A stretch of 64,000 nt of DNA from Cycloclasticus sp. (lineage in GTDB: Bacteria > Pseudomonadota > Gammaproteobacteria > Methylococcales > Cycloclasticaceae): assembly GCA_040743155.1 (NCBI GenBank), contig JBFLJU010000001.1, forward strand, positions 1,550,001-1,614,000, read 5' to 3'. Each line of letters opens with the position of its first letter. Position 1 is the stretch's first letter. The notes below the pieces were generated by a model. It was not told the origin of the DNA. It made no database searches and worked only from the letters and a program-made list of their open reading frames with translations. Position numbers and translations under genes: made by a program. Positions 39,834 to 51,546 of the stretch are shown here, in pieces.

Positions 39834-42800
39834 ATGAATGCCCCACAACGCCCCCTACACTGGCTAAACACACTAAGCATTAGCACAAAAATCATTATAG
39901 GTTTTGCCTTGCCTATCGTGCTGATGACAGCAGCATCCCTTATTAATCATCGCAACTCGCAAGCTCTAATTGAAACTGGAAAATGGGTTCAGCACACCCA
40001 AGAGGTCATCTCAGAAGTCAATTCCTTAGAAAAATTAATGGTCGACATGGAGACAGGTGAACGCGGCTTCTTGATTACCGGTAAAGAGGTGTTTTTGGAA
40101 CCCTTCGTTGCTGCAAACGAACAATGGGGTAAGAAGATAAGTGTTCTACAGAAACTGGTATCCGATAACCTTCAACAAGTCAGTAATATTAAGAAGATTA
40201 ATGAGTTAAAACAGCAGTGGTTAGAACTTGCGGCAACGCCCGAAATAAATCAGCGAAGAAAAGTACGAATAGAGTCTATAAGCCTAGATCATATTCAAAC
40301 CATTCTGCAAAAGGAAACTGGCAAAAAAATTCTTGATAAAATTCGGACGATTGCCGATGAGCTCAATGAAACATTTCTTTTATCAAAAAATCAGAAAGCA
40401 TCAAATCTATTAGTTGCAATCCTTAAGGATATTGTTGATCAGGAAACCGGTGAACGCGGGTTTCTTATTACAGGAGAGGACGAGTTTCTTGAACCGTACC
40501 AGCAAGGACAAGCGAACTTCAATCAACATGTGAGCGAACTAAAATCGCTTATTCTCAACTCACCGTCCGCCGATGAAGTCTCGTCTCTTATTGCAAGAAC
40601 AGAACAGCTCGCTGCAAATTGGCGTGAAAAAGCGGCTATCCCCGAAATTAATATTCGTCGGCAAGTGATGACAAAAAAAGCCGAAGCCGAAGCCGAAGCC
40701 TTATTTTACCAAATGGAGAAAGTACTTTCAACCGGCGTTGGTAAAGGCATTCTTGACAAATTGAGGCTAACGTTAAAGAAACTACAAGACATATTTATTA
40801 CTTCTGGGAACAACACCGCGCAGATTGTCGTATTGTCTTTAGCGAAAGATATGGTTGACCAAGAAACGGGGCAACGTGGCTACCTTATTACAGGCCAGCA
40901 AGAGTTCCTCAAGCCTTACGAGCTAGGTCAAGCCAGTTTTAAGGAAAACATTGCGACCCTCAAAAGTATCACCCAAAATGCTTACGACAAAAATGATGTT
41001 TTTCGTAAAGTAGAAAGCATTGAGCTCGCATTAAGTGAGTGGCAAGAAAAGGCCGCGAAGGTTGAAATAAAAATCCGTCGAGAAGTCAATGAGTCTGGGC
41101 TATCGCCTATAGAATTCCTGCAGCGGACTGTTAGTCAAGAGTCTGATTTATCTCAAAGTCGAGCAAGCATCAAGAAAATTGGGGAAAAGTTTAACCTGAC
41201 CGGTCAAGCAAGAGGCAAATCGATTGTTACTAATATTGATCATAATATCAGCAGCCAAGAAACCAGCTTTCTCCGGTTTATGGTTAGCGGTGACACGGAG
41301 CAATATGAGCGTTTAAAGCATCATCGAGACATGGCCACAAAACTTCTCATAAACCTCTCCGTTTATGTTGCCAAATCATATAAAGCTAATGACCTACCCG
41401 AGATGCAAGCGGATATCGAAGCGCTAAGGTTAAACATGTTAGCGTGGTACCAATCTATTCTTGAACCCACCTTTACTAGCCGACAATACGTCGACAAAAG
41501 CCGGTCCGCTGCCGCCACGCAAATACAAAATGTTCTTAAGCAAGGCAAAGGAAAACGTATTCTCGATGAAACTCGGTCTCTCCTTGACGAGATAAAGGCT
41601 GATTTTATAGCTGCCAAGAACTTGAAGGGAGAATACTTAATTTTGCAAATTGCAAAGTTCTTAGTTGACCAAGAAACAGGGCAGCGTGGCTACATCATAA
41701 CAGGAGAAAACTCCTTCTTAGAGCCCTACTACAACGGCATCAAGAACCTCCGAAGGTCAACCGCAGCGCTATCAAATACGGCGACACAGGCCTTTGATGT
41801 TGATAGTGCATTGACTCAAATCAACAAGATAGAATCTGAAATAGAAAAGTGGCAGAAGGTTGCTGGCGAACCTGAAATTTTGTTACGCCATCAAGTGAAC
41901 GCGGGAAAGAAAAAGTTTAGACAGATTGAATCCGTTGTGTCGAAAGGTATTGGAAAAGGTGTCTTAGATAACATTCGGCGTTTACAAGACGAGCTAAATC
42001 ATATGTTCGTCAAAGCGCAGAATGAGCCAGCACAAGGACTCATTATGTCGCTTGAAAAAGACATTGTGGATATGGAAACAGGGCAAAGAGGCTACCTAAT
42101 AACGGGTAAAAAAGAATTCTTACAACCCTTCGATCAAGGCAAGGCCAACGTAAGGCTGCATCTAGCAGAGATTCGTCAGCTTATTAAAGCAGGGTATAAC
42201 AGTCATGCCATGCTGGTGAAAATTAATACCTTAAGAAAAAAAGTTGAGCAATGGCGCGAGCAAGCAAGTGAACCAGAAATAGGGTTACGAAAAACACTTG
42301 ATCAGACAGCCGCAACCATGACCGATGTTACCCGTTTAATTGAAAGGGAAACCGGCAAGAAGATCGTTGACTCAATAAGAGCCAAGATCGGCGAATTTGT
42401 CGCCGTTGAAAAAGCACTGGTACAAAGCAGAGAGAAGGAAGCGGCAGACGCCGCCTCAAAAGCTTTCTATCAATCGATCATTATCACCGTTCTCTCTATC
42501 CTCTTAGCCTTCGGAGCTGCGTATTATTTATTACGCACGATCTTAAGTTCCCTCAACATCATTAGCGATGGAACTCGGCGTGTGGCGGACGGCGATTATT
42601 TTCATCATATAGAAATTGTCAGCAATGATGAAATCGGACGTTTAGCCGAGTCATTCAATGCTATGACCCAGCAACTCCAAGTGACAATAGAAGAGATGGA
42701 ACTGGCACAAAGCGATTTGGTTGCCAAAAGAGCGGAAGCCGAAGAAGCCTCTCTTGCCAAAAGCGCCTTCTTAGCCAACATGAGCCATGAGATTCGTACA

Positions 42801-44732
42801 CCGTTAAATGGTGTGATTGGTATGGCAAATTTATTACTAGACAGCGAACTAAACCAAGAGCAATTTAGTCGTGCAAGAATTGTTTCAAATAGCGCCACTA
42901 ATTTATTGAGCATTATTAATGACATCCTCGACTTCTCTAAAGTAGAGGCCGGCCAGCTCGATTTGGAATTCATCGACTTTGACCTTAGAACGCTCATGTC
43001 AGATATTGCTGAATCTTTTGCATACCGAGCCGAAGAAAAACAACTTGAGTTCATTTGCCCCTCCAACCCTGTACCGATGAATTGGTACAGAGGCGACCCC
43101 GGTCGTATTCGTCAAGTCTTCTCCAACCTCATCGGCAATGCTATTAAGTTTACCGAACATGGCGAAGTATCCGTTAGCGCTAAAGTCGTTGCTGATGGCG
43201 AAAAATTTTATCTTCTTGCAGAGATAACAGACACCGGCATTGGCTTAACGTCTGAACAACAAAGTGGGCTTTTTGAACGTTTTACCCAAGCTGACAATTC
43301 CACTACCCGTAAGTTTGGCGGTACAGGTTTAGGTTTAGCCATCTCAAAACAGTTAGTAGAAATGATGGGCGGTGAGTTAACCGTGGAAAGCACAATTAAT
43401 GATGGTTCCACCTTCTTTTTCACTGTTGAGCTCGAACATAGTCAACGTAAAATGGCGCCTCCTCCATCAGCCGCTTTGAATGACGGACGAATTCTAATTG
43501 TTGACGATAATTACACCAACCGCTCGTTACTAACACAGTTATTTACTCTTTGGAAAATGGATAGCGACGAGGTTGAAAGTGCAAAAGACGCTCTATTAAC
43601 GTTGAGTGCAGCTTTTGACGAAGGCCGGCCTTTTACAACCGTTATTATCGATATGCAAATGCCTGAAATGGATGGCGTACAATTAGCTAAGGCTATCCGA
43701 GATAATAAGGCCTTTAAAGGCTTACACTTAATGCTTCTTACCTCACAAGCGCGACGCGGAGATGCAAAAAAGATGCAAGCCATTGGCTTTAATGCCTTCT
43801 TGACTAAACCAGTCAATCAATCGGAGCTTTATAACGCCATTCTTCAAGTCAATGGACTTGAAGGCGACGACGACCGCCTAATTACCCGGCATACCGCACG
43901 TGAAATGCAATTATTTGACGCGAAAGTGCTCGTCGTCGAAGATAATATTACTAATCAATTAGTCGCCAGAGGTATGCTTGAAAAGTTTAGCCTCCGCGTT
44001 GAAATAGCGGCTAATGGACGAGAGGCCATTGAGGCACTTAACAGACAACGCTACGATTTAGTGTTTATGGATTGTCAGATGCCCGTTATGGATGGATTTG
44101 AGGCTACCAAGGCGATTCGCCATTCTAAATCAAACGTTTTACAACACGACATTCCGATTATCGCGATGACCGCCAATGCAATGGCCGAAGACGTCAAACA
44201 GTGCCTTGATGCCGGTATGAACGCTCACATAGCTAAGCCCGTCAACCCAACACTACTCCACGAGGCACTGAGTAAATGGCTCCCCCAATATTGTCAGAAA
44301 CAACAAGACGCTCAAACGGACACCGATGACAGTCGCCGTGATGCAAATACGCCTGACACCCAAATAGATACCGAGACGAATGAAATAACAAGCAAGCTAC
44401 AAGATTTCGACGTTGAGACGTTACAAGAATTATTCGCTAGCGATACTGATCAAATTCGTAAAATAACAAGTGCTTTTATCGATGACACCGTGGAGCAACT
44501 GGCGCAATTAAAAACAGCCATTGAAACGGATGACGTAAAACAAGCCGCCGCTATTGCGCATAGACTTAAGGGGGCTTCAGCAAGTATTGGTGGCAGTGAG
44601 GTTGCTAGAATTGCTAAAAACATGGAGATACTAGGTAAAGATGGAAAGCTTGAAAGTCTGGCTAACTTATTGCCTTCATTAGAAGTCGGCTTTGAACGAT
44701 TACAAAAAGCGATATCAAACACATTAACTTAA
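39834..44732 (+). CDS. Giant hybrid sensor histidine kinase with six tandem CHASE3-like units
   Basis: 1632 residues. TM1 (about 18-37) and TM2 (about 880-902) bracket an 840-residue periplasmic region of six tandem CHASE3-like units. The motif VDxETGxRGxxITG starts near residues 70, 201, 341, 611 and 745; a degenerate fourth copy ([14 protein letters not shown]) is near 473. The period is 131-140 residues. After TM2 come a HAMP domain, a coiled coil, HisKA with His985 ([11 protein letters not shown]), HATPase ([15 protein letters not shown]), two receivers (Asp1273, Asp1413) and an HPt domain (His1576). All phosphotransfer residues are intact, so it should be an active BarA/ArcB-style relay. 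No response regulator gene is adjacent. The Shine-Dalgarno is weak. Confidence 0.93.
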
Positions 44733-45458: not shown

Positions 45459-46312
45459 TTACTCCAAATTTTTAAGGGCTTCTTCAAATTTATTTCTGGC
45501 GCTTCCGCGAGCATAGCCTACTTCCATCACCCCATCCTCTTCGTAACTGAGCCAGCGTGTTAAAGCATTCTTTGTACCAAAATCACCTTCAGTTACACCT
45601 TCTAAAAAACTGTCAGGGCTAAACAACCAATCCTCAGGGTGCCATTGCCCACTATTTACAGTCCGTCTACGGTGTTCCATCAGCTCACCTACAAACTCGT
45701 TGCCCTCGCACAAACTTGAAACATTGCTCTTCGTTTTAAACCCCTTAAAACTAACTGGCCGATTTAAAGTTATCGCCACACAGGCAGCCAAATCTGCTCG
45801 GCACTTCCAATAATTATGACTCCAACCAGCACACAAGTGATGTCGGTAAATACTCTTTTCACCTATATTCCCTATCACTTCATCCAGAACTAGAATTGTA
45901 TTCTCTTGCTCTACATCAGTTGAAAGCACAAGTAGCGCGTGCACATAATGCTCTGAAGGGGGTTTTAATAACTCATCCAGAAACCTTGAATACGCCTTCG
46001 GTTGTTTATAAAAACAATGCGTCTCATACAATTGATCATCTACACCTTCTAGCCATTCTAATCGAACAGCGAAAAGCTCCGCGGCATCAGTTAGCAGCTC
46101 TGATTCAATTTAGGCATAAGGTCTTTTTCTGTACTAACATCTTCTAACGTTAAACCCCTACCAAAGAACCGAGGTATCTGATTTTTATGTACATTATGCC
46201 CTTCAAATAGCTTAATAAAACGACCAGCAACAGAGTATTTACCCCCGCTTTTAGTACGATGTTTTTTAAACCTGTCCCATAAAGAAAATCCAGCATCTAT
46301 TTGATCAAGCAC
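45459..46312 (-). pseudogene. Frameshifted gene, unknown family, next to the DUF2075 helicase
   Basis: Two reading frames join into one protein. The first runs from a GTG at 46312 (AGGAG upstream) to near 46101: MLDQIDAGFSLWD, then an HTH-like KYSVAGRFIKLFEGH...RFFGRGLTLEDV. The second begins near 46100 as ELLTDAAELFAVRLEWLEGV and continues through YETHCFYKQPKAY to the stop at 45459. A loss of one base at 46101-46102 explains the break. The rebuilt product would be about 284 residues. I do not recognise the family. The break may be a real mutation or a sequencing error. Confidence 0.75.
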
Positions 46313-46428
46313 AGACTCTCCTACTTTGAATAAAAATTTTCATGGATATTATGCATGCCCATCAGTTCTTCATAACTTAGTTTTACCCAATCAGCCAACT
46401 TTGCTTATTATCAAGTTTCTTTGAACCA

Positions 46429-48402
46429 TCAAAGCATCCTTAAACCCAAATTTTTCAAATAATTAAATGTCGCGTCATAATATTTGCTTGGCCTAGTGTG
46501 GTCGGTATCATCTCCCTCTGGCACAAATATCACCATGCCTTGTCTCGCTCTAGTTAACAAAACACGATAAGCATTCTTTTGATATGTTTGCCGTTCAAGC
46601 TTATTTATTCGCTGCCATCGACTGCCGCGAAATGACCAGTTTTTCCAACTTTCTTGGTCATAACGAAAGTCCGCATCCCAAGCCATACATACCCAATCTA
46701 ACTCAAGCCCTTGCACATCGAATTCAGTTGCAGCATCTTCAAGATAATAAGATGAACGGACATCATCCTTACCATTTAAAAACCAATGCACTGGGTTAGA
46801 TTTTACGCGTACATCTATCGCGTGTGGTCTCAAGCGCTCTGCTTGAGATGAGACCACCATTCCATAACGCTCTGAACCTCGCGCTTGTGTTTTAACCCAA
46901 CTTTTAGCTGTATCAAGGTCCCTTGTAAGTACGATAGGATACTTGTTATGAATATTCGATAAATTTTCACGCGCAGCTTCTTCATCTAGGTCCAGCAGTT
47001 GTTTTACAAATAGTGATACTTTTTCACTACGAAAAGAACGTACAGACGTTCTTAAATGTAGTTCTGGCCGAAAAGTAACCATCGCATTTTTTCTAGCATG
47101 CTCAACAATTTCACCTGCACCGTATTCACTGTCGGTCAAGTGCTCAGAAAGGTAAATTTTCCAATGAGGAAAAGACTTCTCGACTGCATTAAACCACTCA
47201 CTAATACCTGCTTCACCCGTATTTATTTCCTGACCCCCACCTACCAAACAAACAACTGTTGCCCAATCATCATGCCTATCCATACATGAAATCAAGAACT
47301 CAGGCTCAGACTGGTCGAAATCAGGTTGATTCTTCTTCGCACGCATAAATTTAATTGTTTGAGCTTTTGTCCATGCCCTTTGGGCTTCATCAAATAGCAC
47401 AACATGTTCAATAGGAGGTTTCGAAATATCCAGCAGGCCTTCATCACGAAAGTGATGAACGTTTTGGATAAAGGCCTTAACCTCACTTAACGCATCACCT
47501 TTGCGTATCTTTTCACCTTTCGCCTTCACCCTAGCAACTTTGTCACGCGCTAAGGCCTCCTGTAGGATTTTTACTAATGGGCCATTACCTGAAAGAAATA
47601 CACTATAAAGCTCATCTTTAGGCTCTATATGCAATGTGGCAATATCAAGCCCCACTAATGTTTTGCCTGCACCAGGTACGCCTGTCAAGAACACTATAGA
47701 TTTCTCAGCGTTTGTTTTCGAACGAGCAATAATCTCCGCAACAGTATTAGACGTTTCTGACAAATTTAAAGTGCTTGCATCACTACGTGAAATCTCGCTC
47801 ACTGAATGGCCATTGTAAAGAGCCAACGTTGCTTCAATAATAGTCGGAGTTGGCTTATAACCGCTAGCTTCCCAAGCACCACAATCAATCAACTGTCCAA
47901 GCTGTAAATTTAAAACTCTAGTTATAACGTCTTCCAGATTCTTACTATTGCAACGAATCGGCGACAATACACCCTCATCTGGAAGCTTATTAGGTTGCCC
48001 CTCAAAGGTTGGCGCATTAGTTGCGACTAGTATCGGTATAAGTATTGCTCTATGGCTACCCTCATGAAAGTTATGCAAATCTAACGCGTAATCCATGACC
48101 TGATCTAAATCAGCAGACTCAAAGCTTTTTGCCCCAACTTTAAACTCAATAACAAACACAACAGGGCCAACAATAACTACAGCATCAACTCGCCTACCCA
48201 TCCGAGGAATTGAAAATTCGAAATATATTTTTCCTTTATGAGTAAACAATATTTTTTTTAACAATACTGTTTGCTCAACCCATGCGTCTCTTTGCAAGCC
48301 TGTCAAATCAAACGAGTGCTCTCGCGCCATTTGACCAAGAATCTGATCTAGCTCTTGTTCGCAAAACTCAAAAATAGTCGAAGAATAATAGGCGCGTTTC
48401 AT
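46429..48402 (-). CDS. DUF2075 superfamily 1 helicase with N-terminal nuclease-like domain
   Basis: 657 residues. Residues about 60-100 look like a PD-(D/E)xK nuclease core: RRVDAVVIVG followed by VFVIEFKVG (Asp and ExK). Walker A GVPGAGKTLVG is near residue 241, Walker B VVLFDEAQRAW near 334, and the C-terminal helicase motifs include EFDVQGLELDWVCMAWD and YRVLLTRARQGMVIFVP. This is the DUF2075 arrangement, related to SF1 helicases. Such nuclease-helicase fusions occur in defence islands; no role is proven here. A frameshifted partner gene lies 116 bases downstream on the same strand. Confidence 0.85.
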   Translation of the reverse strand: MKRAYYSSTIFEFCEQELDQILGQMAREHSFDLTGLQRDAWVEQTVLLKKILFTHKGKIYFEFSIPRMGRRVDAVVIVGPVVFVIEFKVGAKSFESADLDQVMDYALDLHNFHEGSHRAILIPILVATNAPTFEGQPNKLPDEGVLSPIRCNSKNLEDVITRVLNLQLGQLIDCGAWEASGYKPTPTIIEATLALYNGHSVSEISRSDASTLNLSETSNTVAEIIARSKTNAEKSIVFLTGVPGAGKTLVGLDIATLHIEPKDELYSVFLSGNGPLVKILQEALARDKVARVKAKGEKIRKGDALSEVKAFIQNVHHFRDEGLLDISKPPIEHVVLFDEAQRAWTKAQTIKFMRAKKNQPDFDQSEPEFLISCMDRHDDWATVVCLVGGGQEINTGEAGISEWFNAVEKSFPHWKIYLSEHLTDSEYGAGEIVEHARKNAMVTFRPELHLRTSVRSFRSEKVSLFVKQLLDLDEEAARENLSNIHNKYPIVLTRDLDTAKSWVKTQARGSERYGMVVSSQAERLRPHAIDVRVKSNPVHWFLNGKDDVRSSYYLEDAATEFDVQGLELDWVCMAWDADFRYDQESWKNWSFRGSRWQRINKLERQTYQKNAYRVLLTRARQGMVIFVPEGDDTDHTRPSKYYDATFNYLKNLGLRML

Positions 48403-48566
48403 TGAAAACTCACCGAAACTTTTTTCATACTCAGGAACTCCATTTCAAGACACTCTGCATCCTAAGGCCACAAACAAATATATATCTTATTAGATCATAT
48501 CCAAACGTTGTTGATTTATACCGTAATAATTTCCACACTAAATTTAATGTAATCAAAGTTAATTTC

Positions 48567-48722
48567 ATGCCCAACAAATTTGAACAACTAGTCCAGCAGT
48601 TAGAACAGCACAGCTACATTTCTGATACAAATTTGGTGACGACGCTTTCTTTAATGTAAACTTTGGAACGGCCTTTATAAATTAAAGGTGAAGCAGGTGT
48701 AGGTAAAACACAAATTGCGAAA
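48567..48722 (+). pseudogene. Truncated and mutated 5' copy of the MoxR ATPase gene
   Basis: It aligns without gaps to 50665 onward. I count 9 differences in the first 90 bases. At codon 31 a G-to-T change turns GAA into TAA (48657-48659). The match continues through a damaged Walker A region (GGTGAAGCAGGTGTAGGTAA) and stops near 48722. It is thus a 5' fragment of about 52 codons of the intact gene, which lies 2.1 kb away on the other side of the MFS gene. Confidence 0.85.
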
Positions 48723-48795: not shown

Positions 48796-50130
48796 ATGGT
48801 AAGCGACGTAACTGCACTTGAACGGTTGAAATCGGATCCTATGGGCTTTGGGCAATGGGTCATTGTTGCGATTTGTATCGGCACATTGGCACTGGATGGC
48901 TATGATGTTTTATCCATCGCGTTTGCTGCTCCGGGTATTACACAAGAGTGGGGTCTGTCGAAATCTGTCCTTGGCATTGTGTTGTCGATTGAATTAGCTG
49001 GTATGGCCGGGGGGGCGGTTTTATTCGGCTCATTTGCCGATAATAATGGACGGCGTTTTACCATGTTGTCAGGAATCACTATTGTTACTCTTGGTATGTT
49101 CGTTGCTGGTCTTGCGCCAAACATCTACGTACTGGGAGCGGCTCGTTTGTTTACTGGTTTAGGGATAGGTGGCATTATGGCAACAGCAACAGCGACATGT
49201 TCGGAGTTTTGTAATAATAAAAACCGAGTTATGTCGGTCTCTCTCGTTGCGGGTGGGTTTCCACTTGGCATTTATATTGGCGCAACCTTTCTCGCCCCTT
49301 TACTTAAACAATATGACTGGCGTATTGCCTTTTATCTGGGTACCTTTTTGAGCTTTCTGTTCATCCCTCTTGTTTACTTTTATGTACCAGAAACGGTTTC
49401 ATTTTTAAATCGTAAGCGCCCTACAGATGCTTTAGAACAGATACAAAAAATCATGCGTCGCTTAGGGCATACACCACCTGAATCCTTACCGTCAGTGGCT
49501 GAACAAGAAGCGGAAGTCGTTGGGATGAAAAGTTTGTTTAGTCCAAACTTGCGGTATATTACTTTGCTATTATGCTTTGCGTATTTCGGAAATGTAATGA
49601 CGTACTATTACTTTGTAAAGTGGCTGCCAACGGCTGTTACGGATTTAGGTTACACAGTCTCTCAAGCTACTGAAATTCTAGGTGTTGTCAGTTTAGGCGG
49701 CATCCTTGGATCTATAGGCATAAGTTTATGTGCTCGATTTATACCAATTAGGTCTTTGATGTTAGCAAGCCTTATGCTGACAGCAGTAGGCGTGGCTCTA
49801 TTCCCACACTTTACGGACAGCATGGTAAATATGAAATTGATGGGCTTCTTTGCTGGCACCTTTGTCATGGCCGCTATTTCAGGTTTTTTTGGACTATTTG
49901 CAAGCAGTTTTCCTTCTTCGGTTTTAGGCTCAGGTTCGGGCATAGTGCTCGGTGTTGGTCGTGGTGGCGCTGTTATTGGCCCTATGATTCCTGGTTTTTT
50001 ATTCGCAGCTGGCTTAGCCTTTGAAAACGTAGCCATTATTATGGCGTCAGGTTCTTTTTTGGCGGGTGTGGCCGTTATCTTTCTGCATAAAAAAGCTAAT
50101 TATGCCAAAAAGGGCCATTATGCGACTTAA
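48796..50130 (+). CDS. MFS transporter, aromatic acid:H+ symporter-like
   Basis: 444 residues with 12 membrane helices. The LALDGYDVLSIAFAAP segment in TM1 has the DGYD-type motif of the aromatic acid:H+ symporter group (PcaK/BenK-like), and the loop 2-3 motif reads GSFADNNGRR, a variant of the MFS GxLADRxGRR. The substrate is inferred as an aromatic or related carboxylate, which would suit mhpFE, but is not shown. AAGGA precedes the ATG. The gene is bracketed by two short palindromic repeats and by two partial copies of the MoxR gene start. Confidence 0.85.
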   Translation: MVSDVTALERLKSDPMGFGQWVIVAICIGTLALDGYDVLSIAFAAPGITQEWGLSKSVLGIVLSIELAGMAGGAVLFGSFADNNGRRFTMLSGITIVTLGMFVAGLAPNIYVLGAARLFTGLGIGGIMATATATCSEFCNNKNRVMSVSLVAGGFPLGIYIGATFLAPLLKQYDWRIAFYLGTFLSFLFIPLVYFYVPETVSFLNRKRPTDALEQIQKIMRRLGHTPPESLPSVAEQEAEVVGMKSLFSPNLRYITLLLCFAYFGNVMTYYYFVKWLPTAVTDLGYTVSQATEILGVVSLGGILGSIGISLCARFIPIRSLMLASLMLTAVGVALFPHFTDSMVNMKLMGFFAGTFVMAAISGFFGLFASSFPSSVLGSGSGIVLGVGRGGAVIGPMIPGFLFAAGLAFENVAIIMASGSFLAGVAVIFLHKKANYAKKGHYAT

Positions 50131-50166: not shown

Positions 50167-50186
50167 CTGCATTTCCACAAACTCAT

Positions 50187-50459
50187 TTAAGCTATCGCCT
50201 GAATATCTTCTATATGCTGCGGGTGGCACTGGCTTAAGTCGTAGCTACTTTGTAGGCTTACCCAATAATCGGGCGTGGTATTGAAGTATTTAGCCAACCT
50301 TAATTGCTGTATCTGGCGTAATCGAACGTCTTTCCGTAAGGTCTCACATTCGGGTTGCAGGCATAAGTGTGTCTTTTGCTAAACGATACGGGTTATGTTC
50401 ATTTCTTCCAGTAGTTCTTGGAGGAAAACACCGGGGTAGAATGGGCTGTTAATCATCAT
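50187..50459 (-). pseudogene. higA: Decayed HigA-type antitoxin gene
   Basis: From an ATG at 50459 or 50456 (AGGAG upstream) the frame gives NSPFYPGVFLQELLEEMNIT, then must shift at 50389-50390 (one base lost) to YRLAKDTLMPATRM, passes a TGA stop, continues DLTERRSITPDTAI, and shifts back near 50301 to RLAKYFNTTPDYWVSLQSSY. This is the whole HigA Xre-family plan: HPGE-like start, HTH, and the FGTSPEFWLNLQ-like end. Two frameshifts and one stop make it non-functional. Confidence 0.8.
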
Positions 50460-50465
50460 AGACTC

Positions 50466-50540
50466 CTAGTGATAGTCGGTTACTACAATATCAAACGCTT
50501 CAATGCCGCGTTCTTATACAACTGGGTCACTTTTATTCAT
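50466..50540 (-). pseudogene. higB: C-terminal remnant of a HigB-type toxin gene
   Basis: The last 15 codons before the TAG at 50466 read ERGIEAFDIVVTDYH, like the RelE/HigB C-terminus (..AYDVEIVDYH). Upstream the frame hits a TAA after MNKSDPVV and the rest of the toxin is missing. It directly precedes the higA remains with the short gap normal for higBA. Confidence 0.6.
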
Positions 50541-50620: not shown

Positions 50621-50664
50621 AAAACCTTCCTAAGATAAATTCACTAAATCAGTAAATATTTTTT

Positions 50665-51546
50665 ATGCCCAATAAATTTGAACAACTAGGTCAACAGTTA
50701 GAACAGCACAGCTACATTGCCGATGCAGATTTGGTAACGACGCTTTCTTTAATGGAAACTTTGGAGCGGCCTTTATTGATTGAGGGTGAAGCCGGTGTGG
50801 GTAAAACCGAAATTGCTAAGGTGTTAGCACAGATACATGATTGCTCGCTGATTCGCTTGCAGTGTTATGAGGGCTTGGACGCCAGTACGGCGATGTATGA
50901 GTGGAATTATTCGCATCAATTGCTATCTATTAAGATGATGGAAGACGGTAACGCGAGTTACGAACAAAAAGACGCTGGTATTTTTAACGAGACATTTTTG
51001 TTGGAACGGCCTTTGTTGCAAGCGATACGCCAAAGCAAAACACCGGTGCTTTTGATTGACGAGATTGATCGCGCTGACGAGGCATTCGAGGCGTTTTTAT
51101 TGGAACTCTTATCCGACTTCCAAATTACCATTCCTGAATTGGGTACGATGCAGGCGACGACTATTCCTATGGTTGTTTTAACGTCCAACGGTACGCGTGA
51201 ATTAAGCGATGCGCTACGCCGCCGCTGTTTATACCACTACATGGAATACCCGAACTTTGAAAAAGAGCTACGTATTATTCATGCGCGTTTGCCTGATATT
51301 CACGATACGCTGGCGCAGCAAGTGGCGGAGTTTTTACAAAAACTTCGTGACTATGACTTACGCAAACAACCCGGCATTGCTGAAACCTTGGATTGGGCCA
51401 GCGCGTTGATGGAACAAAGCATTGAGACACTGATTAGCGATGATTTTATAATTAACTCATCGCGTAGTTGTTTGCTTAAAACGCAGGATGACGTTACTCG
51501 CTTGGATAGCACTGAAGTGAGCAAAATCTTAAACACGTTGTCTTAA
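50665..51546 (+). CDS. MoxR-family AAA+ ATPase (CoxD-like)
   Basis: 293 residues. Walker A GEAGVGKT (about 40-47), Walker B LLIDEIDRAD (about 131-140), sensor 1 LTSNGTREL and the arginine region DALRRRCLYHY are intact. The N-terminal LIRLQCYEGLDASTAMYEWN matches the CoxD-type MoxR subgroup. MoxR proteins work with VWA proteins as metal-cofactor insertion or protein-remodelling chaperones; the VWA gene follows after 11 bases. No carbon monoxide dehydrogenase-type client gene is nearby. Confidence 0.9.
   Translation: MPNKFEQLGQQLEQHSYIADADLVTTLSLMETLERPLLIEGEAGVGKTEIAKVLAQIHDCSLIRLQCYEGLDASTAMYEWNYSHQLLSIKMMEDGNASYEQKDAGIFNETFLLERPLLQAIRQSKTPVLLIDEIDRADEAFEAFLLELLSDFQITIPELGTMQATTIPMVVLTSNGTRELSDALRRRCLYHYMEYPNFEKELRIIHARLPDIHDTLAQQVAEFLQKLRDYDLRKQPGIAETLDWASALMEQSIETLISDDFIINSSRSCLLKTQDDVTRLDSTEVSKILNTLS

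Follow-up and report, generated by a model that had tools for sequence, protein, structure and literature searches.

PDC-S41 (PDLC05014), already listed in PADLOC as a single-gene phage defence candidate, is the closest described counterpart of the larger of the two genes considered here. As a class, the PDCs are 'guilt-by-embedding' candidates and are mostly unvalidated (PMC12988326); the papers searched neither mention PDC-S41 nor describe an activity for it. For the smaller gene the nearest comparison is RptR, a 79-aa dedicated repressor of type I restriction-modification (R-M) islands that host embedded defence systems (PMC12255303). Both are small accessory genes associated with type I R-M operons in which further defence systems are embedded, but RptR is encoded upstream whereas the product of our gene is about 290 aa long and its gene stands last, so that length and gene position set the two apart.

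The window, that is, the whole 64,000-nucleotide stretch of Cycloclasticus sp. DNA that was analysed, carries a gene of each kind side by side. The preliminary description took them for a possible undescribed two-gene system, a tempting combination of a helicase with a helix-turn-helix (HTH) protein, but that lead is closed as wrong. The best explanation, to which we give a probability of roughly 0.85, is that the locus is a defence-gene hotspot in which an intact PDC-S41 gene lies beside the frameshifted last gene of a lost R-M operon. The case shows how the decay of one module next to another can create spurious 'pairs' in defence hotspots.

An intact PDC-S41 gene

The larger gene (46429-48402, minus strand) opens with ATG and encodes 657 aa. 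The PADLOC PDC-S41 profile matches this protein over its full length (956 bits, E = 1.9e-288), with residues 1-656 aligned to profile positions 1-652 of 657, and no difference from the PADLOC candidate was found. The initial reading of the protein, a PD-(D/E)xK-like core joined to an SF1 helicase (DUF2075), was borne out. Its C-terminal part is a predicted Schlafen-group-3 SF1 helicase: residues 234-628 (46519-47703, minus strand) match the Pfam family PF09848, SLFN-g3_helicase (E = 1.3e-85, 288 bits), formerly called DUF2075. In an alignment of 34 relatives from many phyla, the Walker A motif GVPGAGKT, the DEAQ motif and motif VI, YRVLLTRAR, show little or no variation. In the N-terminal part, residues 57-127 (48022-48234, minus strand) constitute a candidate PD-(D/E)xK/RecB-like nuclease core, as judged from motif and modelled fold. 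D73, E86-x-K88 and Q101-xxx-Y105 are invariant in the same alignment, and the AlphaFold model computed from it (mean pLDDT 74) arranges residues 57-127 as strand-strand-strand-helix-strand, the order of a PD-(D/E)xK core. The gene is also maintained. Its dN is about 0.12 and its dS about 1.8 relative to two congeners and, even though this dS is close to saturation, the difference indicates that the gene is kept by purifying selection.

The helicase domain is common to PDC-S41 and the Schlafen group 3 helicases by sequence, and the Foldseek search of the model against the PDB placed SLFN14 and SLFN11 among the top matches, together with RecD of RecBCD and Upf1. Nevertheless, the TM-scores of these matches are low (about 0.2-0.3), and PDC-S41 differs from SLFN11 and SLFN14 in the PD-(D/E)xK/RecB-like core at its N-terminus. 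A weak likeness to AbiO and Nhi (E = 1e-8 and 2e-6) concerns the helicase P-loop region alone; their architecture differs from that of PDC-S41 over the full length. Both identities were rejected, as the whole protein goes to PDC-S41. If the predicted domains act as their relatives' names suggest, the Schlafen-type SF1 motor would translocate on or remodel phage nucleic acid, and the fused RecB-like domain would cut the nucleic acid fed to it by the motor.

Some other PDC-S41 loci deserve mention in their own right. In a Candidatus Brocadia genome (L030, 5608-7968) PDC-S41 forms an in-frame fusion with a NUDIX domain, and in two further loci a NUDIX gene lies just upstream of it (L019, about 5065; L029, about 794), hinting at a nucleotide link. 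In an Omnitrophota locus (L058, 817-3228), a MazG-like gene and the gene of an SLFN-g3 helicase of 804 aa, whose C-terminus matches S24 peptidases, directly precede PDC-S41, which makes two Schlafen-type helicases in tandem; a similar gene occurs in L060 and L070.

The frameshifted neighbour and its relatives in R-M operons

The smaller gene, hereafter the partner, runs from 46312 to 45459 on the minus strand and would encode about 284 aa if read across one frameshift. Its 5' piece (46091-46312) has a GTG start preceded by AGGAG and stays open to the frameshift, matching positions 2-73 of a profile built from its relatives (E = 7.7e-24); the 3' piece (45459-46109), of about 215 aa and with a natural stop, matches positions 69-285 (E = 3.2e-104). 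Since the profile covers both pieces in order, the single-frameshift reading given in the preliminary description is right, and the reconstructed length fits the closest relatives (288-298 aa; full-length relatives span 283-325 aa). The frame is lost within 46094-46109 (AATTGAATCAGAGCTGC), where the two open frames overlap and where the relatives read through in one frame.

No reliable match to the family of the partner turned up in Pfam, NCBIfam, PADLOC, PHROGs or the PDB, the profile search against the PDB returning chance matches only (E above 1), and no description of it was found in the libraries and open papers searched. An HTH-like N-terminus had been proposed. By eye, the N-terminal ~90 residues do have an XRE-type HTH look, and the resemblance is plausible but lacks statistical support: Pfam contains no HTH match for this region, and hhalign against two small XRE sets aligned sensible regions at E-values of 0.05-0.14 and probabilities of about 1% or less. 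Four relatives (G976, G1076, G1137 and G1240) start with a strongly hydrophobic segment. The 211-aa C-terminal piece of the partner reached a pLDDT of 36 in a single-sequence AlphaFold run, and this model was set aside. Promoter and terminator scans stayed at chance level, and the short open frame of 26 residues that immediately precedes the partner (LADWVKLSYEEL...) does not match any hsd gene.

Relatives were collected from 18 genomes besides that of the window, and R-M genes accompany them at 11 of these 18 loci, where the partner is nearly always the last gene of the operon. It closes an R-M operon in 10 of the 18 genomes: type I operons in G047, G053, G024, G531, G583, G976, G309 and G1137, a type III operon in G710, and in G1076 it directly follows an HsdM-like gene. 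In G080 it precedes a ResIII-type gene instead. The window partner is homologous to the last genes of R-M operons (profile E = 3e-104). At the other seven loci (G129, G1012, G416, G1191, G1211, G1240 and G1107) R-M genes were not seen nearby, some partner loci ending early at contig ends; the link with R-M is thus common but not obligatory. Six of the genomes (G1076, G1107, G1137, G1191, G1211 and G1240) come from a search made after the R-M association had been noticed, and since R-M genes are present at only two of these six loci, the association is weaker in that branch. A match in G986 was judged spurious.

Several of these operons harbor a second defence system: PrrC in G047, KwaB of Kiwa in G710, and a PtuA-type Septu ATPase with PDC-S02 in G1137. 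In G053 (L102, 7447-17714) the type I operon contains the Hachiman genes HamA/HamB and a PDC-S14-type GIY-YIG/DUF4357 gene before the terminal partner. Judged purely by its position, the ~290-aa partner is most likely an accessory or regulatory protein of R-M operons. A more specific proposal, which we put forward tentatively, is that it represents an unrecognised accessory or regulatory family closing those R-M operons in which a second defence system is embedded, where it might control the operon or couple the failure of restriction to the release of the effector. This R-M-operon-terminal family is the modestly novel part of the locus: missing from the profile libraries and yet recurrent at the ends of R-M operons, it offers a testable candidate for operon control.

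The search for relatives on mobile elements yielded none in IMG/VR contigs or phage records, and the plasmid matches were distant, one of them being annotated as TraE. Two relatives, one intact and one broken, lie beside XRE-type repressors and Zot-like filamentous-phage genes (L157 and L158, in G1240 and G1107).

Lack of pairing and synteny of the hotspot

The conservation of the pair was evaluated from both sides. A survey of 84,980 species genomes provided 409 stretches encoding PDC-S41 relatives, of which the best 80, from many phyla, were fetched with their flanks. The partner was found at none of these 80 loci (0/80), whether by tblastn or by a partner-family HMM in all frames; at least 1.5 kb of downstream sequence was available in 66 of them. 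Conversely, PDC-S41 is absent from the 18 partner loci outside the window (0/18). Among 151 order-level genomes PDC-S41 occurs in three and the partner in five, the two together being seen in the genome of the window alone. This lack of co-occurrence elsewhere is the outcome that the preliminary description itself had named as refuting the two-gene idea. The recurrent neighbours of PDC-S41 include Fic, HNH, HipA, Vsr, MazG-like, NUDIX and DUF4143 ATPase genes, each at six or fewer of the 80 loci. PDC-S41 thus behaves as the single-gene candidate defined in PADLOC, of which the partner of the window is not a part.

Among the congeners, G006 and G043 have PDC-S41 but not the partner at the corresponding site of this hotspot, close to its esterase/ABC block; the MoxR pair is also present at the G006 hotspot. 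G047, on the contrary, has the partner and lacks PDC-S41. There the order is MoxR/VWA, a DUF4143-type ATPase, HigA, hsdR, hsdS, a PrrC homologue, hsdM and the partner, followed by toxin-antitoxin-like genes, a Zeta-type gene and the esterase/ABC block; the AAA gene of this operon is PrrC (PADLOC, 449 bits). Across the two genes, the window resembles G047 at the DNA level only in the partner (45486-46312), and G006 or G043 only in the PDC-S41 gene (46428-48418). Because each block is confined to a single gene, PDC-S41 and the partner come as separate units. The earlier impression of defence-type genes, one of them decayed, is upheld, and they lie in a hotspot of gene turnover.

The pseudogenes and repeats noted around the pair were likewise confirmed. 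A duplicated 5' fragment of a MoxR-type AAA gene, broken by internal stops and frame loss (48563-48721, plus strand), is a 159-bp direct repeat 87% identical to 50661-50819. A HigA-like antitoxin gene with broken frames (50182-50501, minus strand) has 77-84% DNA matches to L097, L095 and L102, and in G047 the corresponding edge of the hotspot has an intact HigA (L097, 3596-3865). Between the two copies of the 159-bp repeat lies the gene of an MFS transporter (48796-50130), which looks as though it had arrived with a partial duplication.

The most probable history is as follows. The hotspot, which in the congeners is delimited by the MoxR/VWA gene pair on one side and the esterase/ABC-transporter block on the other, has taken up different defence modules and lost them again. 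The single-gene PDC-S41 module is intact, and the second module is most likely a leftover, the frameshifted last gene of a former R-M operon whose hsd genes are gone. The order of these losses is something that we infer. No hsd gene or remnant was seen beside the window partner, including between it and PDC-S41, so that it is solely the synteny of G047 that points to the loss of an operon from exactly this place.

Several alternatives may be opposed to this history. The proposal that the two genes form a true defence system of their own, with the helicase as effector and the second protein as its regulator, now decayed by the frameshift, could draw on the fact that the genes are co-directional and only 117 bp apart and that both families are associated with defence. 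Yet, a conserved pair is hardly compatible with its absence from all 80 PDC-S41 loci and all 18 other partner loci, with the co-occurrence of both genes in one of 151 order genomes, or with homology blocks that stop at the gene borders, and we regard this explanation as highly improbable. The decay that it supposes concerns one gene only: the partner is frameshifted, but the helicase gene is intact and under purifying selection. PDC-S41 and the partner are very probably two independent defence modules that adjoin by chance in one hotspot.

The state of the partner itself could be read differently. One possibility is that an error of sequencing or assembly produced the frameshift, which would make the partner an intact orphan beside PDC-S41. 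A single lesion was seen, the Shine-Dalgarno-like AGGAG of the start region and the C-terminus are preserved, and the 3' piece is more similar to its G047 counterpart at codon positions 1 and 2 (0.72) than at position 3 (0.43). Nevertheless, the site contains no long homopolymer, the nearby MoxR fragment and HigA gene are clearly broken, and the R-M genes that usually accompany the partner are missing from the locus, so that an error appears rather unlikely. It is still much less probable that the partner acts in trans for the remaining type I R-M system of the genome. An hsdM-hsdS-hsdR operon does exist elsewhere in the chromosome (G000:C1, about 2.346 Mb), but its HsdM shares only about 30% identity with the HsdM of G053, where the operon does include a partner, the operon at 2.346 Mb has no partner gene of its own, and the partner of the window is frameshifted. 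The reading of an intact PDC-S41 beside the remnant of an R-M operon is therefore retained.

At 39834-44732 the window also encodes a hybrid sensor kinase of 1632 aa, in which two receiver domains and an Hpt domain are combined with six CHASE3 matches; such a sixfold CHASE3 array is unusual.
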